Origin: a virus
Virus record (IMG/VR): IMGVR_UViG_3300020185_004424
Coordinates: 1-23,448 of that record
Length of the DNA: 23,448 nucleotides
Reading direction: 5' to 3' (one strand)
The notes under the pieces were generated by a model. It saw nothing but the letters and a program-made list of their open reading frames with translations. It was not told the DNA's origin and did not search any database. Of the stretch, positions 2 through 13,536 are shown piece by piece. The position numbers were made by a program, and so were the translations under genes. How positions within the stretch are numbered: position 1 is the stretch's first letter; each line of letters begins with the position of its first letter.

Positions 2-595
2 TCAGCTTTAGTTGAAGGTGGGGAGGATGTACCCGAAGGACATTATGAGCAAGATAATATGAAAGAAACAGTTGTTCCTAACAGGAATAAAATGTTTGCT
101 TCAATTACTCAAGCAGTAGCATTATCTATAGCAAATAGAACAGAAGACGTTTGTGATATTGCTTTAGGTATTCATGCTGGTGACCATGCAGTTTATCCTG
201 ATTGTAGGCAAGAATTTAGAGATGCTGATGATGCAGCCTTTAGAATAGGAAATTGGGATGCTGATAGAGTAGGTTATTTTACACCTTACTTAGATACTGA
301 TAAATTTGGTATCTTACAAGATGGAGAAAAATTATGTGAGATTTTAGGTATTGATTTTAATGAAGTTTATTCTAGAACAAATACTTCCTATAAACCAATT
401 AAAGTATATAGCAGACCTGAAACAAATGCTTGGGAATGGTATAGTGATTATAAATCAGCTTCATCAGTAGAACGTATTGAAGCATTTATTAAACTAGGAA
501 GACCTGATCCTGTTGGATATGCTGATGAGAGTGGTGTTGTTTCTTATGAGGTAGCAAAAACTCACGTTGAAAAGGTATTGGCTGAATATGTATAG
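2..595 (+). CDS. queC: 7-cyano-7-deazaguanine (preQ0) synthase QueC, C-terminal part, 5' end outside window
   Basis: QueC converts 7-carboxy-7-deazaguanine to preQ0 with ATP and ammonia. The reading frame is open to the left edge, so the ATG at 59 is internal and the N-terminal ATP-binding loop lies outside the window. Family signatures seen are VVPNRN, a GxHAGDHAVYPDCRQEF segment (compare YPDCR in E. coli QueC) and a C-terminal SVERIEAFIKLG/DP segment that matches the usual CVERxEAF region. All four zinc cysteines of the family (TxSCY and CxxCxxC before VER) are replaced by S, D, S and S. The family assignment is secure. Whether the product is preQ0, the amide intermediate or nothing is open. 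It may be the C-terminal domain of a longer fusion such as gat-QueC, which cannot be judged here. QueD, QueE and FolE follow downstream. Confidence 0.93.
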   Translation, partial: SALVEGGEDVPEGHYEQDNMKETVVPNRNKMFASITQAVALSIANRTEDVCDIALGIHAGDHAVYPDCRQEFRDADDAAFRIGNWDADRVGYFTPYLDTDKFGILQDGEKLCEILGIDFNEVYSRTNTSYKPIKVYSRPETNAWEWYSDYKSASSVERIEAFIKLGRPDPVGYADESGVVSYEVAKTHVEKVLAEYV

Positions 596-1103: not shown

Positions 1104-1343
1104 ATGAAATTATATTATTTTAGTGCCCCTTGGTGCGGGCCTTGTAAAATGTTAGGACCACAAATGGAAAAAAGTGGTTTACCTTATACCAAAGTAAATG
1201 TTGATACTGATACTGAATTATCAACTAAATATGGAATTAGAAACGTCCCAACTTTAGTAAAAACGGATAGTGAAGGAAATGAAATTAGTAGAATAGTTGG
1301 TAATAAACCTATAACTGAAATTAAAAATTGGTATAATGGGTAA
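1104..1343 (+). CDS. Thioredoxin-like protein, 79 aa
   Basis: Small cytoplasmic dithiol/disulfide oxidoreductase. The active site is WCGPCK, with Cys11 and Cys14, and the cis-proline motif is NVPT near residue 48. At 79 aa it is shorter than host thioredoxin (about 105 aa) and closer to the minimal phage thioredoxin/glutaredoxin fold, with a truncated N-terminus. Phage versions usually reduce ribonucleotide reductase, but no nrd gene is visible here. It overlaps queD by 8 bases, so it is translated in the same unit as the deazaguanine genes. An alternative name would be NrdH-like glutaredoxin, but CGPC favours thioredoxin. Confidence 0.93.
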   Translation: MKLYYFSAPWCGPCKMLGPQMEKSGLPYTKVNVDTDTELSTKYGIRNVPTLVKTDSEGNEISRIVGNKPITEIKNWYNG

Positions 1344-1800
1344 ATTTCAATCAAGTAAAGTATTTGACGGTTTTAGTACAGTGTTTCGTCAATGGAAAGC
1401 AGAAACAACTCACTGTAGATTTGTACATGGTTATGGTATATCCTTTAAAGTATATTTTGAAGGTGATTTAGATGAAAGAAATTGGGTTTGGGATTTTGGA
1501 GGTATGAAACGTGCCAAAACACAAATTGATGGTAAATCTCCTAAAGAATGGATGGATTATACTTTTGATCATACTATGATTATTGCTGAAGATGATCCTG
1601 AATTAAAGGCATTCCAACAAATGGATGCTGCTGGTGTAGCCCAAGTAAGAGTAATACCAGCTACAGGTGCAGAGAAATTTGCTGAATTTATATTTAATAA
1701 GCTTAATTCCTTTGTATTAGAAGAAACTGAAGGTAGAGTTAGGGTTACTAAAGTAAAATTTATGGAACATGGTAAAAATGCAGCGTATTATATTGAATAA
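1336..1800 (+). CDS. queD: 6-carboxytetrahydropterin synthase QueD-like
   Basis: Second step of the preQ0 pathway: converts dihydroneopterin triphosphate to 6-carboxytetrahydropterin. Catalytic residues match the family: Cys27 in the THCRF motif, Asp78-His79 in FDHTMII, and Glu113 in TGAEKFAEF, which corresponds to the TxE motif. The length of 154 aa is slightly above the usual 120-145. The zinc site is unusual. The canonical HGH is HGY (His31, Tyr33), and the upstream AAH histidine is not evident because the segment reads VFRQWKAETTHC. This looks like the divergent FRQW...HGY branch of the family rather than a dead enzyme, since the catalytic residues persist. Adjacent FolE, QueE and QueC genes support the pathway. 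Confidence 0.9.
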   Translation: MGKFQSSKVFDGFSTVFRQWKAETTHCRFVHGYGISFKVYFEGDLDERNWVWDFGGMKRAKTQIDGKSPKEWMDYTFDHTMIIAEDDPELKAFQQMDAAGVAQVRVIPATGAEKFAEFIFNKLNSFVLEETEGRVRVTKVKFMEHGKNAAYYIE

Positions 1801-1841: not shown

Positions 1842-2630
1842 ATGGAGCATAAAAAGCTAAAGCGTATTGAAGACTACGACAAAAATCTTCCAATTGTTGA
1901 AATTTATACAGCAGTACAATCAGAAGGATCAAGATCAGGATATCCCACAGTAGTAATTAGAACAACAGGATGCACCCACAGATGTTACTTCGGTGAAGGA
2001 GGCTGGTGTGATTCTTGGTATACATCAATCCACCCAGAAAAAGGGCATTTTAATTTTAACGACATTATTAAAGCATATGAGGATAACCCTCATATAAAGG
2101 AAATGATGTTAACAGGAGGATCTCCTACTATGCATCCTGCTCTTGTAAACGAACTAACACATTTTGCATATGAAAACGATATTTTTATTACTATCGAAAC
2201 TGAAGGAAGCCATTTTTTACCGACTGACTATCCTATTAATTTGCTTTCTATTAGTCCTAAGTTCTCCAATAGCGTACCTGTACTTGGGGTACCTACACCT
2301 CAAGGAAAAGATACAGATGAAAGAATGATTAAACAACATAATAAGCTTAGACTTAATGGAGAAGCAATTGTAAAATCTATAGAATATCATTCTGATTACC
2401 ATATAAAACCAGTATGGGATGGTAAAGATCAATTAGCATTAGGTGAAATAATAGATTTTATTAGAATGTTAGATATACCTCAAGATAAAGTATGGTTTAT
2501 GCCTGCGGGAGATTCAAGAGAAGGGTTATTTAAATCTTATCCACTAGTATTTGATTGGGTTAGAGATAACGGTTATAGAATGACCTGGAGACCGCATATA
2601 ATCGCATTTGAAGATCAACGTGAGGTATAA
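1842..2630 (+). CDS. queE: 7-carboxy-7-deazaguanine synthase QueE (radical SAM)
   Basis: Radical-SAM ring contraction of 6-carboxytetrahydropterin to 7-carboxy-7-deazaguanine. The N-terminus has the QueE substrate signature (EIYTAVQSEGSRSG...PTVVIRTTGC). Three cysteines bind the 4Fe-4S cluster: Cys44, Cys48 and Cys56. Their spacing is CX3CX7C, so an FGEGG-type insert widens the usual CX3CX2C. The GG motif for SAM is MLTGGSP (about residue 91), followed by a typical ETEGS strand. At 262 aa it is slightly longer than E. coli QueE (223). The start follows a 41-base gap with a T/A-rich leader. Its stop shares a base with the next start (TAATG), so the next gene is probably translationally coupled. 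Confidence 0.93.
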   Translation: MEHKKLKRIEDYDKNLPIVEIYTAVQSEGSRSGYPTVVIRTTGCTHRCYFGEGGWCDSWYTSIHPEKGHFNFNDIIKAYEDNPHIKEMMLTGGSPTMHPALVNELTHFAYENDIFITIETEGSHFLPTDYPINLLSISPKFSNSVPVLGVPTPQGKDTDERMIKQHNKLRLNGEAIVKSIEYHSDYHIKPVWDGKDQLALGEIIDFIRMLDIPQDKVWFMPAGDSREGLFKSYPLVFDWVRDNGYRMTWRPHIIAFEDQREV

Positions 2631-3564: not shown

Positions 3565-3702
3565 TTGGATAAGCAAGAAGCTCTTTGTATATTAGAGGAA
3601 ATAGAAGAAAATATCAATACCTGCTGTGCTATAACTATGGAACCAGACGAAGTATTAGTATTAGTAGATAAATTAAAAAGTTATATAAATGAACAAACGT
3701 AG
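3565..3702 (+). CDS. Possible small protein, 45 aa, TTG start
   Basis: The reading frame between the previous stop and folE encodes an acidic peptide (DKQEALCILEEIEENINTCC... VLVDKLKSYINEQT) of helical character. The only usable start is TTG at 3565; there is no ATG before residue 25. It overlaps the folE start by 14 bases. TTG starts also seem to be used at 16268 and 22940. It resembles short phage ORFs that lie in front of enzymes, but a non-coding leader of folE remains possible. Confidence 0.42.
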   Translation: MDKQEALCILEEIEENINTCCAITMEPDEVLVLVDKLKSYINEQT

Positions 3703-4381
3703 AAAAATCCACGAACAATTAGAAGTGGTACAAGAGGGTTTTGCCAATGGTGTAGCACCCGGATTCCCATTTAACGATCAAGAAAAACAACATATGATAG
3801 AAGACGCAACGGAAGCTTATGGTAAGTTTTTAGATGCTCTAAAATGTGATTGGAGAAATGATCCTAATTCAATGGAAACCCCTAAAAGAGTAGCTAAAGC
3901 CTATGTTAACGATCTATGGGCTGGTAGATATACTGCAATGTCCCCTATTACATCATTCCCTAGTGATGGTTATGATGGTATTGTTATTGAACGTAATATA
4001 CCATTAACTTCAATGTGTTCACACCATCACCAAACAATTGGAGGGGTTGTTCATATTGGTTATATAGTAGGACAAGAAGGTAGAGTAATTGGTTTATCAA
4101 AATTAAACCGAATTGTAGAATTATTTGGTAGAAGAGGAGCAATACAAGAACAATTAACATCAGCTATTCATAATGCAGTAGATAAGATTTGTGAAAATAA
4201 TAAAGGTGTAATTGTTACTATAGTTGGAACACATAATTGTGTAAGCTGTAGGGGAGTTAAACATCAAGGTGCAGCTATGGTTACAACTAAAGCATCAGGT
4301 GTATTTAAAGAAAATAATAACTTAGCAAGAAAAGAATTTTTTGATTCATTAAAAATAAATAATGGAGGACACAATATATAG
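3689..4381 (+). CDS. folE: GTP cyclohydrolase I
   Basis: Opens the GTP ring to give dihydroneopterin triphosphate, the first precursor of preQ0 (and of folate). Seen: the N-terminal helix with TPKRVAKAY (residues 64-72), zinc ligands Cys110 and His113 in MCSHHHQTIGG and Cys184 in THNCVSCRGV (the position of E. coli Cys181), and GLSKLNRIVELFGRR (135-149), which is highly conserved in the family. At 230 aa it matches the bacterial type IA enzyme (222 aa). The start at 3689 (ATGAACAAACG) follows AAAAGTTATATAA. In context with queC, queD and queE it most probably supplies deazaguanine synthesis rather than folate. Confidence 0.96.
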   Translation: MNKRRKIHEQLEVVQEGFANGVAPGFPFNDQEKQHMIEDATEAYGKFLDALKCDWRNDPNSMETPKRVAKAYVNDLWAGRYTAMSPITSFPSDGYDGIVIERNIPLTSMCSHHHQTIGGVVHIGYIVGQEGRVIGLSKLNRIVELFGRRGAIQEQLTSAIHNAVDKICENNKGVIVTIVGTHNCVSCRGVKHQGAAMVTTKASGVFKENNNLARKEFFDSLKINNGGHNI

Positions 4382-4383
4382 TT

Positions 4384-4926
4384 ATGTTAAGAATAGAAAA
4401 AAATAAATTAAAATTAAGTTGGGATGATATTAGCAAATCAGTAGATGATTTATGTAAAAAAATTCCAATGGAATTACCTTTAATAGATTCAGTACATGGT
4501 ATAGCAAGAGGGGGTTTAATACCTGCTGTTATGATATCCCATAAACTAGATTTACCTTATGTAAATGCTGTTGGACCTAATACTTTAGTAATAGATGATA
4601 TTGCAGATAGTGGAGTTACTTTAGAAAAAGCACCTGGTGTTTATACCGCTGTACTACATTATAAACCTCATACTTCTTGTTTTAAACCTAATTTATGGGC
4701 AGACTTACATGAAAGTGATGAGTGGTTAATTTATCCTTGGGAAAAATATGATTCAAAACCAATGCAAGATTATCTACAAAGCAAAGAATTTTCAGAGTTT
4801 GCGGAAAATGAAGATAATAGTTTGGTTTGGCCCGAAGAAGATAGTAAATTACATACGATAGGAGGTTTAACAAATGATCAAGAAGGATCATTTATGAAAT
4901 TTGTAAATAAACAGAAAGATGAGTAA
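4384..4926 (+). CDS. Purine (Gpt-like) phosphoribosyltransferase
   Basis: Type I phosphoribosyltransferase fold. The PRPP-binding loop is TLVIDDIADSGVTL (residues 67-80). Upstream is HGIARGGLIPAVMISHKL (38-55), as in xanthine-guanine phosphoribosyltransferase (SRGGLVPG in Gpt). After the PRPP loop comes a W-x-x-YPWE segment (residues 113-119), which in Gpt carries base-recognition residues. Expected reaction: guanine or xanthine plus PRPP to nucleotide. Placement after folE suggests purine salvage feeding the GTP pool, or loading of a modified purine, which is inference. The C-terminal 50 residues (EDNSLVWPEEDSK...) extend beyond the core. It overlaps the next gene by 8 bases. Confidence 0.85.
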   Translation: MLRIEKNKLKLSWDDISKSVDDLCKKIPMELPLIDSVHGIARGGLIPAVMISHKLDLPYVNAVGPNTLVIDDIADSGVTLEKAPGVYTAVLHYKPHTSCFKPNLWADLHESDEWLIYPWEKYDSKPMQDYLQSKEFSEFAENEDNSLVWPEEDSKLHTIGGLTNDQEGSFMKFVNKQKDE

Positions 4927-5482
4927 ACAATTAAAGTTATTTAAAGAAGAAGAACTACCTGTATGGGTTAACGAAGTTCCATTTGTTAGCGAGGTAGAAA
5001 CGTTTAACAAAACATTTGGTAAACCAAACAACTATGAACCAACCATCCCAGAAAAAAAAGAATGGCAATTTGTATACGATTTCATCCTTGAAGAACTTGA
5101 AGAATATAGAGAAGCTTGCGAACGAGGCGACATTGTGGAAGTTTTGGACGCTTTGTGCGATATTACTTATGTTTCCCTTGGGAACGGTACTATGTTACAT
5201 GGCCTTAAGGATAAGATATGGCCAGCATATCAAGAAGTACAAGCAAGTAATATGTCAAAAGCTTGTAAAACTGAAAAAGAAGCCCTACTCACCATCAGCC
5301 AAAGAAGTGAGGAACAAGGTGAGGCCTGCCATTTTGAGAAGATTGCGGAAGGACGGTACATTGTCTACAGAACACGTGATAGAAAAGTGATGAAATCAAT
5401 AAATTATTTTAAACCTGATTTATCCCAATTTTTTACAGGGGATGAATTACAAAAATTTCACCAACCAGGAACTGTTATATAA
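4919..5482 (+). CDS. NTP pyrophosphohydrolase, MazG/HisE-like
   Basis: All-alpha NTP pyrophosphohydrolase (PRA-PH/MazG superfamily), which hydrolyses a nucleoside triphosphate to monophosphate and pyrophosphate. Metal-binding motifs: EELEE at residues 58-62 and EVLD at 74-77 followed by Asp81 in DALCDITYV. The C-terminal half (SNMSKACKTEKEA ... VMKSINYFKPDL) is the pattern I associate with Bacteroidetes phosphoribosyl-ATP pyrophosphohydrolase-like proteins. It probably cleans or balances the dNTP pool during replication and modification. GC is locally high (54 of 120 bases at 5281-5400 by my count). Another ORF in a shifted frame (5016-5390) is a shadow. The stop abuts the polymerase ATG. Confidence 0.88.
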   Translation: MSKQLKLFKEEELPVWVNEVPFVSEVETFNKTFGKPNNYEPTIPEKKEWQFVYDFILEELEEYREACERGDIVEVLDALCDITYVSLGNGTMLHGLKDKIWPAYQEVQASNMSKACKTEKEALLTISQRSEEQGEACHFEKIAEGRYIVYRTRDRKVMKSINYFKPDLSQFFTGDELQKFHQPGTVI

Positions 5483-7222
5483 ATGTATAGAAAATGTTAT
5501 CAAGGTAAAAAATTAGGTCATAATGTTTGGGAAATGCATCTGTGGGATGAAAAAGGACACCAAATTATCCCTTATGAAAATATAGCATATCAAGAATGTA
5601 AGGAAGAAGATCACACTAATATTGGACTAAATGGTGAATATTTAAAACATACTAATAATTGGTATTTTTCTAAAAACCCAAACTATAGTGATAAAAATAC
5701 TCCTGGTTTACATTTTCATGATATGAAAATTCATCAAAAGTTTTTAGTTGAAAGATATGGAACTAATGATGTACCTTCTACAGGACATAGGGAAGTATTT
5801 TTTGATATTGAATGTGAAATTGGAGGGGCATTAACTGAAGATTATATTGAAAGTGCCCCAATGCCTATTACATCAATTGCTTGGTGGGATAAAACCCCAG
5901 ATACTTGGCACATTTTAATCCTTGATAAAAAAAACCAACTTAAACATACTAAAGCTAGAAATAAAGAAATTATACCTTGTAGTACTGAAAGTCAATTATT
6001 AGCTAAATTTATTGAATTAATTAGAGATATTGACCCAGATATTTTAATTGGTTATAACTCAGATTATTTTGATATACCTTATTTATATTATAGAATGTGT
6101 AATACAATAGGTAAAGAATTTGCTGATCATTTATCTCCTTTAGGTAAAGTAGAATCTAAAAAATTCTCTAAATTTTTCTATAAACGAAATCAATATGTTG
6201 ATATTGTAGGAGTTGAATCACTTGATTATATTCGTTTACATAAAAAATATAGTTGGAAAGATGAACCAAGTTGGAAATTAGATGCTATTGGAGAGAAATA
6301 TGTTGGAATGAATAAAGTTGAATATGAAGGAAATTTAGATCAATTATTTGAAACCGATATACAAAAATTTATTCAATATAATTTTGTTGATGTTGAAATA
6401 CTTCAAAAATTAGATGAAAAATTACAATATATTGCTTTAACTAAAAACTTATCACATAAAGGTAAACATAATTATAGTGAAGTTTATTCTAATAGTGTTA
6501 CTCAAGATGGAGCAATTTCAGCTTATTTATTATCACAAAATATAATTCCACCACCTAAAGAACCTAACCCTCAAAAGAAAGATGGTTATGCTGGAGGATA
6601 CCTTTTTTGCCCCAAAGCGGGATTATACAAGTATATGTTTGATGAGGATTTAACATCGCTATATCCATCTATAATCATGTCAATTAACATTGGCAAAGAA
6701 ACATTTGTGGGTCGTATTATAGATGCAGATGACCGTAATAATAGATTGGGTCTTAACGATTTAAAAGAACGTGATCCTAAAGATCTATTATTAGTTGAAA
6801 ATGGAAAAAGACGTCAAACTAATATTGAAGCTGGAGAATTAGTAAAAATAATTAAATCACAAAATTTAGCAGTAGCGGCTAATGGTTCAATGTTTAGAAC
6901 AGATAAAGAAGCAGTATTATCAACTATACTTAAAAAATGGTTTGAAGAACGTGTTTTATATAAAGGACGTATGAAAAAAGCATATAAATCCGGAGATAAA
7001 GAAGCAGGTGAATATAATCATTTAATGCAATATACAATGAAAATTTTACTTAATAGTTTGTATGGAGCAACAGCATTACCTTCATTTAGATATGGTATGA
7101 ATCAATCTATATTAAGTGAAGCAATTACACTATCAGGTCACAGAATTATTCAAGAATCAGCTTTATGTGCTAACAGACACATGAATAAAGTAATAAAAGG
7201 GCAAATAAAATTAGAAATATGA
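5483..7222 (+). CDS. 43A: DNA polymerase gp43, N-terminal part (exonuclease and motifs A and B)
   Basis: N-terminal two thirds of a T4-type family-B replicative polymerase, 579 aa. The 3'-5' exonuclease is complete: Exo I Asp108/Glu110 (FFDIECEIG), Exo II Asp197 (YNSDYFD), Exo III Tyr299/Asp303 (YNFVD). Polymerase motif A is DLTSLYPS with Asp389, and motif B is KILLNSLYG with Lys520 and Asn524. The frame stops after ANRHMNKVIKG plus seven residues, before motif C. Motif C lies in the separate gene at 8621-9556. The two halves sum to 890 aa, close to T4 gp43 (898), so nothing essential seems lost. The stop overlaps the next start as ATGA. No homing endonuclease and no intein ends are seen. Confidence 0.96.
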   Translation: MYRKCYQGKKLGHNVWEMHLWDEKGHQIIPYENIAYQECKEEDHTNIGLNGEYLKHTNNWYFSKNPNYSDKNTPGLHFHDMKIHQKFLVERYGTNDVPSTGHREVFFDIECEIGGALTEDYIESAPMPITSIAWWDKTPDTWHILILDKKNQLKHTKARNKEIIPCSTESQLLAKFIELIRDIDPDILIGYNSDYFDIPYLYYRMCNTIGKEFADHLSPLGKVESKKFSKFFYKRNQYVDIVGVESLDYIRLHKKYSWKDEPSWKLDAIGEKYVGMNKVEYEGNLDQLFETDIQKFIQYNFVDVEILQKLDEKLQYIALTKNLSHKGKHNYSEVYSNSVTQDGAISAYLLSQNIIPPPKEPNPQKKDGYAGGYLFCPKAGLYKYMFDEDLTSLYPSIIMSINIGKETFVGRIIDADDRNNRLGLNDLKERDPKDLLLVENGKRRQTNIEAGELVKIIKSQNLAVAANGSMFRTDKEAVLSTILKKWFEERVLYKGRMKKAYKSGDKEAGEYNHLMQYTMKILLNSLYGATALPSFRYGMNQSILSEAITLSGHRIIQESALCANRHMNKVIKGQIKLEI

Positions 7223-8226: not shown

Positions 8227-8624
8227 TGGTAAAAGGAGTTATAGCAGGAGCATTTGATGTAATACACCCAGGTTATATAAAAATGTTTAAAGAAGCAAAA
8301 CAACATTGTGATAGTCTTATAGTACTACTACATACAGACCCTACAATTGAAAGACCAGAAAAATTAAAAGCTATATTAAGTGTAGATGATAGAAAAGAAA
8401 TATTAATGTCTCTTAAATATGTAGATGATGTAATTAGATACACTTATGAAGAACAATTATATGATTTACTTAAAATGGGTGAATTTGATATTAGGTTCTT
8501 AGGGGATGATTATAAAGATGAGCCTTTTACTGGTGATAATTTAAGAATTTTAATTCATTATTTAAATAGAGACCATGGTTGGTCAACTACTAAGTTTAAA
8601 AAATTAATAGCACAATCTATATGA
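8226..8624 (+). CDS. Cytidylyltransferase-like nucleotidyltransferase (TagD/RfaE type)
   Basis: A single Rossmann-like HIGH-superfamily nucleotidyltransferase of 132 aa, the same length as glycerol-3-phosphate cytidylyltransferase TagD. Seen: GAFDVIHPGYIKMFKEAK (residues 8-25, the HxGH loop), LIVLLHTDPT (36-45), LSVDDRKEILMSLKYVDDVI (61-80), FLGDDY (102-107) and the C-terminal STTKFKKLI (119-127), which corresponds to ISTT. The HxGH motif reads HPGY, so the second histidine, usually catalytic, is tyrosine. It would couple a phosphorylated alcohol or sugar to CMP or AMP, giving a precursor for a surface polymer. The altered motif leaves activity uncertain. It ends in ATGA overlap with the second half of the polymerase. 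Confidence 0.85.
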   Translation: MVKGVIAGAFDVIHPGYIKMFKEAKQHCDSLIVLLHTDPTIERPEKLKAILSVDDRKEILMSLKYVDDVIRYTYEEQLYDLLKMGEFDIRFLGDDYKDEPFTGDNLRILIHYLNRDHGWSTTKFKKLIAQSI

Positions 8625-9556
8625 AACATTTAGAAGAAACACCTTGGTGGATATGTGATGCAGATGATGAGAATTACTGTGCTTATGTAGATACTGATTC
8701 TAATTATTTTAATGCTGAACCTATATTACTTCATTTATATCCTAATTTTGAAGAATTTACTGATAAAGAAAAAGATGATATTTTAGAAAAAGTAGCACTT
8801 AAATATCAAGATGTTATTACTGATCATTATGATATGTTAGCTAAAGAATGTTTTAACGTTCCAGAACATAGACTTGAAATGAAAACTGAATGTGTTATCC
8901 GTTCAGCTTATTTTAGGGCAACCCGCCGTTATGCCCAATGGATTACCAAACAGGAAGGTATTGAAAAAGAATCTTTAGATATTAAAGGTTTAGAATTTAT
9001 GAAAGCAAATTTTCCACCTATTTTAGGGGAATTTTTTAATGACATACTTCAACAAGTACTTAAAGGTGAAGAAAAAGCTAATATAATTAACCAAATTAAA
9101 GTTTTTAAAAAACAAATATTAGGTGGGGAAATACCACTAGCAAAATTAGGTAACCCAACAGCAGTTAAAAAATTACAAAAATATTCAGGTACAAGTGCTA
9201 GAGCAGGTGAAATGTTTACTGAAATACTTAAGGGTGCACCAGCACCAGTTAGAGCAGCTATTAGATATAATGATTTATTAAAATTATGGAAATTAGATAG
9301 AAAACATAATTTAATTACAATGGCAGATAAAGTAAAATGGATTTATTGTAAAGATAATCCATATAAAATAGAAGCATTAGCATTTTTTGATTATGATATT
9401 CCTGAAAAAGTACAAGAATTTTTAGATAGATATGCTGATAGGCAAAAAGTATTTGATTCAATATTATTAAATAAATTAGAAGGATTTTTTAGTGATTTAC
9501 AATGGTCATTAGATTTAAACCCTTATACAAATGCATTAAGTTCGTTTGAAATTTAA
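8621..9556 (+). CDS. 43B: DNA polymerase gp43, C-terminal part (motif C and thumb)
   Basis: C-terminal third of the family-B polymerase, 311 aa. Motif C is YVDTDS with catalytic Asp24 and Asp26, followed by the palm and thumb. The end (KLEGFFSDLQW ... ALSSFEI) parallels the T4 gp43 C-terminus (PLEGF ... SLFDMFDF), whose last residues bind the sliding clamp. The first 20 residues (MKHLEETPWWICDADDENY) precede the motif C strand, so the break falls in the connection between motifs B and C. The start codon sits in the stop of the preceding nucleotidyltransferase gene (ATGA), so translation is probably coupled. It must associate with the product of 5483-7222 to form an active polymerase. Confidence 0.95.
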   Translation: MKHLEETPWWICDADDENYCAYVDTDSNYFNAEPILLHLYPNFEEFTDKEKDDILEKVALKYQDVITDHYDMLAKECFNVPEHRLEMKTECVIRSAYFRATRRYAQWITKQEGIEKESLDIKGLEFMKANFPPILGEFFNDILQQVLKGEEKANIINQIKVFKKQILGGEIPLAKLGNPTAVKKLQKYSGTSARAGEMFTEILKGAPAPVRAAIRYNDLLKLWKLDRKHNLITMADKVKWIYCKDNPYKIEALAFFDYDIPEKVQEFLDRYADRQKVFDSILLNKLEGFFSDLQWSLDLNPYTNALSSFEI

Positions 9557-10770: not shown

Positions 10771-11190
10771 ATGAGTACATTATTCAATGAACGTACACCG
10801 TTCGACTTACTTTTCCGTAACCTATTCAAGGCAGACGGAGTTTTTCAACCAACAACGTTTGAAAACAAACAACCACACCCACTAGATATTTTTTACGACG
10901 AAGAAGGGCTTCACTTTGAGATTGCCTGTACTGGTCTAACTAAAAAAGATATTCAACTAGAAATTGATGGAGATCTTTTAAAAATTATCTATGATAAACC
11001 TAATGAAGAAGATTTTGATTATAGTGGCTACATCTATAAAGGATTAGCTAAAAGATCTTTCAATTTAGGATATAAAGTAGCAGCTAAATTCGAACTTGAG
11101 AAATTAGAAGCAGAGATGAAAGATGGTTTGCTTCATCTATTTATTCCAATTTCTGAATCTAAAAAACCAAAATCAATTAAAATAAAATAA
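10771..11190 (+). CDS. Small heat-shock protein, Hsp20/alpha-crystallin family
   Basis: ATP-independent holdase chaperone of 139 aa. The N-terminal MSTLFNERTPFDLLFRNLF is the typical flexible arm. The alpha-crystallin domain spans about 35-135 (PLDIFYDEEGLHFEIACTGLTKKDIQLEIDGDLLKI ...), with the conserved A-x-M/K-x-D/N-G-L/L motif as AEMKDGLLHLFIPI, and there is a short IxI-like tail (SIKIK). T4-like cyanophages also carry Hsp20 genes. Its gene precedes GroES and GroEL, so the phage brings a chaperone set. The first 150 bases use more C-ending codons than the rest, which is an oddity I cannot explain. Confidence 0.94.
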   Translation: MSTLFNERTPFDLLFRNLFKADGVFQPTTFENKQPHPLDIFYDEEGLHFEIACTGLTKKDIQLEIDGDLLKIIYDKPNEEDFDYSGYIYKGLAKRSFNLGYKVAAKFELEKLEAEMKDGLLHLFIPISESKKPKSIKIK

Positions 11191-11260: not shown

Positions 11261-11584
11261 ATGACAACAAAAAACAAAAGAAAATCTATTCAAACTATTA
11301 CCGACCCCTTATTAGAACCATTCTTTATTACTAAAGATGAATACAGTTATACTGTAAAACAAAATGTAATATCTGATGCTTCTCATTTTAGGGCTAAAGG
11401 TAAATCAAAAACCTATGAAAAATCATTATATTATTTTGCTGATTTTGGAAAAGCTGTACAAAAAATAGCTAATTTAAAAGCAGATATGCAAAATTTTGAT
11501 AGTTTAGAAGAATATATTAACAATTATATAGAAATAAGTAATAATATTAAAAATTATACCGATGGAATTAGAAGCGCTATTTAA
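11261..11584 (+). CDS. Conserved phage-type hypothetical protein, 107 aa
   Basis: Not assigned to a named family. The segment ITDPLLEPFFITKDEYSYTVKQ (about residues 13-34), then KGKSKTYEKSLYYFADFGKAVQKIANLK and a final SLEEYINNYIEISNNIK helix, resembles small proteins in many phage genomes that I recall only as hypothetical. It is soluble and mixed alpha/beta, with no metal motif. The leader AATAAATAAAGTTAT precedes the ATG. It overlaps groES by 23 bases and is therefore the first gene of the chaperonin unit. Confidence 0.75.
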   Translation: MTTKNKRKSIQTITDPLLEPFFITKDEYSYTVKQNVISDASHFRAKGKSKTYEKSLYYFADFGKAVQKIANLKADMQNFDSLEEYINNYIEISNNIKNYTDGIRSAI

Positions 11585-11927
11585 CGCCGTTATTGTAAAA
11601 CCTATTGAAGCAGAAGAAACCACATATGGTGGTATTATTGTTCCTGATTTAGGAAAAGAAAAAAATGAAACAGCCCAGGTAGTATCAGTTGGGCCTGGTC
11701 AAGATACTATTCATGGAAAGTTTATTAAAACAACTATAAAAGTAGGAGATATTGTAGTTTTACCTACAATGGGTTTTACAAAACTTCCATATAATGGGGA
11801 AGAATATTATGTAGGACCCGAAAATCAAATTTTAGCTAAAATCAATACTCCAGTAAAGGATATATTAGCTCAAACTGAAGTTACAAAAGAAGAAATTAAT
11901 CACTTAACAGATTTATCAAATGAGTAA
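11562..11927 (+). CDS. groES: Co-chaperonin GroES
   Basis: Heptameric lid of the GroEL chamber. The N-terminal beta-barrel starts LFNAVIVKPIEAEETTYGGIIVPD (residues 6-29), with the mobile loop that contacts GroEL containing GGIIVP. It continues with AQVVSVGPGQ and VGDIVVLPTMGFTKLPYNGEEYYVGPENQILAKI, both typical. At 121 aa it is longer than E. coli GroES (97), because the C-terminus carries about 25 extra acidic residues (PVKDILAQTEVTKEEINHL...). It overlaps the GroEL start by 8 bases, so the two are coupled as in bacteria. Phages that carry both genes are less common than those carrying one, such as T4 gp31 alone. Confidence 0.95.
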   Translation: MELEALFNAVIVKPIEAEETTYGGIIVPDLGKEKNETAQVVSVGPGQDTIHGKFIKTTIKVGDIVVLPTMGFTKLPYNGEEYYVGPENQILAKINTPVKDILAQTEVTKEEINHLTDLSNE

Positions 11928-13536
11928 ACAAGTTACATTAGGAACAACAGCTAGGAAAAATCTAGTAGAAGGAATTGATATTTTAGCTGATGCTGTAGTA
12001 TCAACATTGGGACCAAATGGTAGAAATGTAGTAATTTCAAAACCAGGTGAATCCCCACAATCAACAAAAGATGGAGTTACAGTAGCAAAATCAATATCTC
12101 TATCGAATCCAGAACAAGAATTAGGAGTACAATTAGTTAAACAAGCAGCTATTCAAACAGCAGAAAAAGCAGGTGATGGGACAACAACTTCAACATTATT
12201 AGCCCGTGAGATGGTAAAAGCTGGATTAAATGCCTTAAATAATGCTGAAAATGCTGTACAAATTAAAAGAGATATTGATGATACAGTTAAAAAAGTTGTT
12301 TCTAACTTAAAAAAAGTATCAGAGGATATATCAGATGAAGAACAATTAGAACAAATTGCATCAATATCAGCAAATAATGACCCTGAAACAGGAAAATTAA
12401 TTGCTACTGCAATTAATAAAGTAGGAATGGAAGGGGTTGTCCATATTGAAGAATCACGTACTGGTGAAACATATCTGGAAACTGTGGAAGGGTTACAGTT
12501 TGATAGAGGGTTTAAATCACCTTATTTTGTTACTGATAATAATTCAATGTCTGCCACATTAGACAACCCCCTTATTCTAGTTGCTGATCAAAAATTAACT
12601 CAAGTAAAAGAATTATTACCTATTTTAGAAGCTGTAGGGGCACAAGCAAGATCTTTACTCATTATAGCTGAAGATATAGATAATGAAGCTCTAGCAACTT
12701 TAATTGTTAATAAGATGAGAGGTACTTTAAATGTATGTGCCGTAAAAGCACCAGATTTTGGAGATAGAAGAAAATTAGCTTTAGAAGATATAGCCATTAC
12801 AACAGGTGGTATGGTATTTGATAAGCAAAAAGGAATGAAATTAGATAAATTTAGCTGGGAATGGTTTGGTGAAGCAAGAACAATAACAGTAGAAAAGGAA
12901 CAAACAACTATAGTAGATGGAAAAGGAGGAATTGAACAAATTGAAGCACGTATTAAAGAACTACAACAACAAATCGATAAAGCAACAACACCGTTTGAAA
13001 CGGAAAAACTCCAAGAAAGACTCGCAAAATTTGTCGGAGGAGTAGCTATTATCCATGTAGGAGGAAATACTGAAACTGAAATGAAAGAGAAAAAAGATAG
13101 AGTAGATGATGCATTACATGCAACAAAAGCTGCTATTGAAGAAGGAATAGTACCTGGAGGTGGAACAGCACTACTTTATGCCTCATCAGGTTTAGAAGCT
13201 AAAACAACAGGTGCCCAAATTGTAATAGAAGCTTGTGCTAAACCATTTAGTCAAATTCTAGTAAATGCCGGATTTACTGAAGTAAAAGGACAAATATTAG
13301 CTGATAATTTAGTTAATTCAGGTAATGATACTTGGGCTGGGTTTAATATTAAAACTGAGGAAATAGTTGATATGAAAAAAGCAGGTATTATTGATCCTAC
13401 TAAAGTAGCTAGAGCAGCATTACAAAATGCAGCATCGGTTGCAGGTACAGTATTACTTACAGAATGTACTGTGGTTGATGAACCTAGTGATGATAATAAA
13501 CAACAACAAATGGACCCAATGATGGGTATGATGTAA
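11920..13536 (+). CDS. groEL: Chaperonin GroEL
   Basis: Full-length 60-kDa chaperonin of 538 aa (E. coli 548). Nucleotide-site residues are intact: GPNGRNV (31-37), Asp51 in KDGVTVAK, Asp86 in GDGTTT, and KKDRVDDALHATKAA with the catalytic Asp equivalent to Asp398. The equatorial C-terminal GIIDPTKVARAALQNAASVAGTVLLTE is also typical. The tail is QQQMDPMMGMM, a short Met-rich version of the GGM repeat. The apical domain contains SWEWFGEARTITVEKEQTTIVDGKG, as in bacterial GroEL. No frameshift or gap is seen. With the coupled GroES it should form a working folding machine for phage or stressed host proteins. Confidence 0.97.
   Translation: MSKQVTLGTTARKNLVEGIDILADAVVSTLGPNGRNVVISKPGESPQSTKDGVTVAKSISLSNPEQELGVQLVKQAAIQTAEKAGDGTTTSTLLAREMVKAGLNALNNAENAVQIKRDIDDTVKKVVSNLKKVSEDISDEEQLEQIASISANNDPETGKLIATAINKVGMEGVVHIEESRTGETYLETVEGLQFDRGFKSPYFVTDNNSMSATLDNPLILVADQKLTQVKELLPILEAVGAQARSLLIIAEDIDNEALATLIVNKMRGTLNVCAVKAPDFGDRRKLALEDIAITTGGMVFDKQKGMKLDKFSWEWFGEARTITVEKEQTTIVDGKGGIEQIEARIKELQQQIDKATTPFETEKLQERLAKFVGGVAIIHVGGNTETEMKEKKDRVDDALHATKAAIEEGIVPGGGTALLYASSGLEAKTTGAQIVIEACAKPFSQILVNAGFTEVKGQILADNLVNSGNDTWAGFNIKTEEIVDMKKAGIIDPTKVARAALQNAASVAGTVLLTECTVVDEPSDDNKQQQMDPMMGMM

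Follow-up and report, generated by a model that had tools for sequence, protein, structure and literature searches.

The four cysteines that bind zinc in QueC are replaced by Ser, Asp, Ser and Ser in a phage clade to which a truncated viral queC gene belongs. The loss spans hundreds of phages, and bacteria and archaea are found in which a zinc-less protein is the sole QueC. We consider it likely, with a probability of about 0.8, that the clade enzyme is a zinc-independent preQ0 synthase feeding DpdA-type 7-deazaguanine DNA modification, and that a metal-free segment has replaced its zinc knuckle. The zinc site is described as a hallmark of QueC that is kept even in the repurposed proteins QatC and Cap9, and its loss is seen across domains.

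Zinc-ligand positions in the phage clade

The window is the whole 23,448-base stretch analysed, virus record IMGVR_UViG_3300020185_004424, and its first ORF (2-595, +) is the queC fragment. The features of this fragment are as follows.

2..595, +, queC, 5'-truncated: C-terminal part of 197 aa; PF06508, 61.5 bits; 95% identical to relatives L002-L004
74..88, +, VPNRN motif (VPxRN), kept: invariant in 80/80 clade members
194..205, +, YPDC motif, kept: its Cys is the sole invariant Cys of the clade
386..388, +, Ser for zinc ligand C188 (E. coli numbering): the kept Tyr189 equivalent comes next
446..448, +, Asp for zinc ligand C197, by alignment to E. coli K-12 QueC
455..457, +, Ser for zinc ligand C200, by the same alignment
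464..466, +, Ser for zinc ligand C203, by the same alignment

The frame is open from the first contig bases to a TAG stop, and the start of queC is missing because the contig begins inside the gene. The fragment matches the Pfam QueC profile at positions 69-185 of 210, and its 61.5 bits exceed the curated PF06508 cut-off of 22. Full-length zinc-less relatives have 262-316 aa versus 231 for E. coli QueC, to which the clade proteins are about 30% identical. The TIGR00364 equivalog cut-off of 150.3 is missed by the full-length QueC of phage immuto (122 bits) and by the window fragment (59 bits); E. coli QueC scores 296 bits. Annotation rules requiring this cut-off or the zinc motif would misfile a whole phage and microbial QueC branch.

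A scan of viral contigs with QueC matched at least 600 stretches, of which at least 596 were confirmed as relatives and the best 80 were read. The alignment contains 79 relatives, namely 78 full-length IMG/VR proteins and the QueC of the isolated Flavobacterium phage immuto (L082), and 80 sequences with the window. Among these best 80 of at least 596, the zinc positions are S/D/S/S in 79/79 relatives and in 80/80 sequences when the window is counted, so that the motif C(x)8CxxCxxC of canonical QueC is absent throughout. Such uniformity across all 79 relatives puts the loss of the zinc ligands far beyond chance. An earlier note on this DNA had read the four zinc cysteines as S, D, S and S, and alignment with E. 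coli K-12 QueC bears this out. The note was also right that the three remaining Cys lie elsewhere (in EDVCD, YPDCR and EKLCE), the part present having no further Cys, and that the QueC core is kept, VPNRN and YPDC being invariant in the clade. The Cys of EDVCD occurs in 68/79 relatives and that of EKLCE in 74/79. The note had allowed for cysteines elsewhere in the full-length protein, but the 79 relatives hold no conserved replacement set. Their alignment also rules out that the N-terminal stretch absent from the window holds the zinc cysteines, as no conserved Cys cluster was found there. With the ligands invariantly gone from a large conserved clade and no substitute Cys set, a QueC branch without zinc is supported at the level of sequence.

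The catalytic signature is otherwise complete in 79-80 of the 80 aligned zinc-less QueCs. The SGGxDS phosphate-binding loop and YxQxHxxE are kept in the 79 full-length relatives, as are the equivalents of Y35, Q37, H39 and E42 (E. coli numbering); the window's contig begins downstream of this region. VPxRN, YPDC and the Lys165 and Tyr189 equivalents are kept in 80/80, including the window. The dN/dS of queC against its nearest relatives is about 0.06-0.15, which indicates a gene maintained by purifying selection rather than one that is decaying. The predicted model of full-length relative L002 (pLDDT 81, pTM 0.83) has the QueC structures 2pg3 and 3bl5 as its best PDB matches (TM 0.68-0.77, depending on the target), and Cap9 is the fourth match. 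At the site of the zinc knuckle the model places, with good confidence, a beta-hairpin made of strands 217-222 and 227-233 and followed by the VER helix.

Gene neighbourhood and the candidate DpdA

Downstream of queC the order of genes in the window is thioredoxin, QueD, QueE, flavodoxin-like, FolE, PRTase-like, MazG-like and family B DNA polymerase. This cluster is a GTP-to-preQ0 gene set with its 5' end cut off.

1104..1343, +, thioredoxin-like protein: PF00085; between queC and queD in many relatives
1336..1800, +, queD (6-carboxytetrahydropterin synthase-like): PF01242, phrog_2389
1842..2630, +, queE (7-carboxy-7-deazaguanine synthase-like radical SAM): phrog_2076, 173 bits; TIGR03365, 52 bits, below cut-off
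3689..4381, +, folE (GTP cyclohydrolase I): PF01227, 145 bits
4384..4926, +, phosphoribosyltransferase-like protein: phrog_8995; in 40/80 loci (best 80 of at least 596)
4919..5482, +, MazG-like nucleotide pyrophosphohydrolase: PF01503, phrog_671; in 43/80 loci (best 80 of at least 596)

Among the best 80 of at least 596 loci, queD is present in 62 and queE in 57; both are also in the window. Possible targets of the PRTase-like and MazG-like proteins are the modified base or the dGTP pool. The family B DNA polymerase of the window is split in two genes (5483-7222 and 8621-9556) with unrelated small genes between them; the N part ends after the KxxxNSxYG region and the C part begins with YVDTDS. 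The same split, with varying inserts, occurs in L002, L005, L016, L041, L060 and other relatives. GroES-like and GroEL genes lie at window positions 11562-13536, and groES and groEL are also present in immuto; a small heat-shock-like ORF was noted by eye at 10771-11190.

The complete genome of immuto encodes QueC, QueD, QueE, FolE, the PRTase-like and MazG-like proteins, an annotated DpdA and QueF. Its QueF scores 263 bits on TIGR03138, below the cut-off of 293, and lies above the cut-offs of PF14819 and PF14489. QueF also occurs together with zinc-less QueC on the large contig G030. Immuto and each of four further large genomes (G027-G030) yielded no QueC besides the zinc-less one. QueF is present in 5/80 loci (best 80 of at least 596) and in 2/5 large genomes, and was not seen in most phages of the clade within the sequence covered by the loci. 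This distribution suggests that the DNA base would be dPreQ0 in most clade phages and dPreQ1 where QueF occurs.

A DpdA-like gene is present in 63/80 loci (best 80 of at least 596) and in all five large genomes, so that DpdA is encoded with folE, queD, queE and queC in these relatives. In L003 and L004, whose QueC is 95% identical to that of the window, it lies about 1.4 kb upstream of queC; the dpdA of the window would fall beyond the contig end. The immuto DpdA, gp206 (L242:7090-7884), belongs to phrog_19058, listed as of unknown function. The AlphaFold2 model of the L003 protein (pLDDT 95) has DpdA 7ui4 as its best match (E 1.4e-6), and the structures that follow include mouse tRNA-guanine transglycosylase; by predicted fold, phrog_19058 is a divergent DpdA. 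Pfam TGT models gave no match to the clade DpdA and also missed the other phage DpdAs tried; the clade DpdA was therefore sought with immuto gp206 as BLAST query and by structure comparison. Known phage DpdAs, used as BLAST queries, did not detect the clade protein. The literature searched, which did not cover the Immutovirus description (Hoetzinger et al. 2021), contained no nucleoside mass spectrometry of clade DNA.

Zinc-less QueC outside the clade

The genome-contig scan, with the QueC of L002 as reference, recovered cellular zinc-less QueCs that are 39-55% identical to it; the nearest matches (at least 63% identity) probably come from phage contigs that were binned into cellular genomes. 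S/D/S/S, the same as in the phages, is found in isolates of Cysteiniphilum, Facilibium and a Thiotrichales bacterium. The zinc positions are mostly S/H/T/D in Pirellulaceae MAGs and mostly S/S/S/D or S/S/T/D in Poseidoniales/Thalassarchaeaceae MAGs, and Verrucomicrobia and Neomarinimicrobiota MAGs also carry zinc-less QueC. In a survey of Planctomycetota the four Cys are kept in 49/49 QueCs recovered, the Pirellulaceae start genome excluded, and zinc loss is thus the exception in this phylum.

The zinc-less protein is the sole full-length QueC in 25/25 genomes checked (19 bacterial, 6 archaeal); other QueC-profile matches in them are of P-loop type and reach at most 27 bits on their own. Six of the 25 genomes are isolates, and most are MAGs. 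A second QueC could be missing from MAG assemblies, but the six isolates argue against this as a general cause. QueF is present in 18/19 of the bacterial genomes, TGT in 16/19 and QueA in 17/19, and the Cysteiniphilum and Facilibium isolates with S/D/S/S have all three. The six archaeal genomes have a TGT of archaeal length. The genes are also neighbours: the order is queF-queC-queE in L118 and folE-queE-queC-msrB-queD in L116, queF adjoins queC in G021 and G022, and queD and queE lie beside queC in L105. QueF is the preQ0 reductase and acts on the nitrile preQ0. Its occurrence with a sole zinc-less QueC means that the cellular zinc-less QueCs very probably make preQ0.

Many Poseidoniales have a zinc-less QueC that carries an MsrB (SelR) domain at its C-terminus (L113:2505-3641, L126:6001-7158 and others); in L116 msrB is separate and directly downstream of queC. 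A link between thiol loss and oxidation repair through MsrB would be a guess.

A tree of 112 QueCs, calculated without the knuckle columns and including a few rows with long branches, groups the phage clade with Cysteiniphilum and relatives (support 99/100), inside mostly zinc-less cellular proteins. The zinc state changes five times on this tree, with at least four changes forced by well-supported branches and with losses and regains indistinguishable; a single change is ruled out. The zinc-bearing Bacteroidales L173 and L174 sit inside the mostly zinc-less group, a placement that is weakly supported (88/77). Many of the carriers are marine, though not all, and zinc scarcity at sea as a cause is speculation.

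A second zinc-less phage group, that of Acinetobacter phage HD01 (L093:2740-3555, L177-L207), has mostly S/T/N/N. It has zinc-bearing close sisters in the scan, HD01 is placed elsewhere in the tree, and its zinc-less state arose separately from that of the S/D/S/S clade. The HD01 queC cluster includes a DpdA of CAjan type. The record H80 (L086, CAKLQF020000007), labelled Acinetobacter phage MD-2021a, was dropped as phage evidence because its queE and queC are flanked by the bacterial housekeeping genes dapD, cbl, bcp and paaF; it looks like a bacterial chromosome.

Product, mechanism and known systems

Since bacteria and archaea are found whose sole QueC is zinc-less, preQ0 most likely remains the product of the clade enzyme. 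FolE, QueD and QueE, encoded nearby, would supply 7-carboxy-7-deazaguanine; the PP-loop ATPase would adenylate it, and the adenylate would be amidated with ammonia to ADG. A second adenylation and elimination of AMP would then give the nitrile preQ0, as in ordinary QueC. The zinc knuckle is taken to be structural; a putative metal-free segment (NTSYKP...YSDYKSASSVER, modelled as a beta-hairpin) would stand in its place and still present the essential Tyr189 equivalent. Insertion of preQ0 into phage DNA would be the task of the small divergent DpdA, whose gene closely precedes queC in the nearest relatives; in those relatives that have QueF, the base probably undergoes reduction to preQ1. In sum, we infer the metal-free state, preQ0 as the product and its incorporation into DNA; the textbook zinc of QueC is probably dispensable. 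Several points weigh against this reading. The preQ0 used by QueF might be imported or, in phages, come from the QueC of the host; the gene content of clade phages in which QueF was not seen does not demand preQ0; and QueC is described as needing zinc (PMC13329287), a site that QatC and Cap9 keep.

That the site still binds a metal through O/N ligands (Asp, Ser, Thr, His), altered rather than metal-free and with preQ0 still the product, is unlikely. The replacements do include Asp, and in Pirellulaceae His, Thr and Asp, and they are strongly conserved within each lineage. Their identity nevertheless varies between lineages (S/D/S/S, S/H/T/D, S/S/S/D and, in HD01, S/T/N/N), which fits loss better than a new metal site; Ser is a poor zinc ligand, and in the L002 model a hairpin replaces the knuckle.

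The earlier note had proposed either a branch without zinc or altered chemistry, and suggested that zinc loss makes the enzyme stop at the amide. The first part is supported by sequence, the ligands being invariantly gone; the second is not supported, and phage DNA carrying dADG for this reason appears quite improbable. ADG is an established intermediate of QueC, dADG has been found in the DNA of phages (PMC6884629, PMC8306585), and most clade phages have no QueF in the sequence covered. Against this, phage CP220, whose DNA is reported to have dADG at 100% of G (PMC8306585, citing earlier work), retains the zinc cysteines. Cells whose sole QueC has this same S/D/S/S also carry QueF, TGT and QueA, which make up a pathway dependent on preQ0, and immuto, itself a clade member, has a QueF with the SNCxVTxQPDWG motif intact. 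In addition, Y35, R99, Y131 and Y189, essential for preQ0 formation by E. coli QueC according to mutagenesis (PMC13329287), are all kept. The note had also named preQ0-making QueCs without the cysteines as evidence that would count against it; genomic inference points to such enzymes, and no published assay of any zinc-less QueC was found in the literature searched.

The four cysteines are also kept in CAjan, Ares (Rosebush-genus), the haloviruses HCTV-1 and HVTV-2, phages Finch, Sour, CRB2, Mufasa8 and BcepGomr, and Bacillus phage BSTP5. dPreQ0 was measured in the DNA of CAjan and Rosebush (PMC6884629). Since the dADG phage CP220 and the dPreQ0 phage CAjan both have the cysteines, the product does not follow the zinc state. 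The CP220 QueC (L084:4779-5438) has Phe for the Tyr of YPDC, and a Phe of this FPDC type is also found in a divergent zinc-bearing Planctomycetota group (L306-L321). E. coli QueC with Y131F is only partially active (PMC13329287), so this Tyr is perhaps a better lead to ADG than zinc. A dedicated ADG synthetase restricted to the S/D/S/S phage branch (QueF-less phages with dADG), with the cellular zinc-less enzymes still making preQ0, is likewise improbable. The least tenable explanation is a protein that is repurposed, for example for protein deazaguanylation as in Cap9 and QatC, or inactive: repurposing is known in PF06508 (PMC13329287, PMC13279940) and Cap9 is among the matches of the model, but Cap9 and QatC keep the zinc cysteines (PMC13329287, PMC13279940), queC is located with queD, queE, folE and dpdA, the immuto annotation names neither a CD-NTase nor a qat gene, and inactivity is contradicted by the dN/dS.

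The phage, bacterial and archaeal proteins quite probably make up a group of zinc-independent preQ0 synthases that crosses domains; if so, the zinc of QueC is not catalytic. Proteins that keep everything else in the active site, and that occur where no second QueC is encoded, make it testable whether zinc is catalytic or structural, and they are natural variants for the study of enzymatic nitrile formation.

The 2026 PF06508 survey presents QueC as a zinc enzyme that needs the metal for function, treats the four-cysteine motif as a hallmark of canonical QueC and, in the parts drawn on here, does not mention a zinc-less canonical branch (PMC13329287). The clade enzyme has in common with canonical QueC (E. 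coli, B. subtilis 3bl5, 2pg3) the fold, SGGxDS, YxQxHxxE, VPxRN, YPDC, K165/Y189 and the queD, queE and folE neighbours, and differs in lacking all four zinc cysteines, in its greater length and in falling below the TIGR00364 cut-off. The dPreQ0 phages (Rosebush group, CAjan) also have pathway genes and DpdA in the genome, but they keep the zinc cysteines and their DpdA has no BLAST-detectable similarity to that of the clade. CP220 QueC shares the core motifs; unlike the clade, it has the four cysteines and FPDC, and in the stretch seen its queC is separated from queD and queE and adjoins a gene for DNA polymerase. QatC and Cap9 are of the same superfamily, and Cap9 shares the active-site core (PMC13329287). 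Both keep the zinc cysteines that the clade has as S/D/S/S, act on proteins and lie in anti-phage defence operons (PMC13329287, PMC13279940); their partner genes (qatA/B/D, CD-NTase) are not named in the annotated immuto genome. LarE and GMP synthetase, which form PF06508 clusters, are PP-loop ATPases without a QueC-type zinc motif, as is the clade enzyme (PMC13329287), but they lack the QueC catalytic motifs that the clade keeps. Gat-QueC of archaeosine-type phages is a glutamine amidotransferase fusion, whereas the full-length QueCs of the clade start at the SGGxDS domain.
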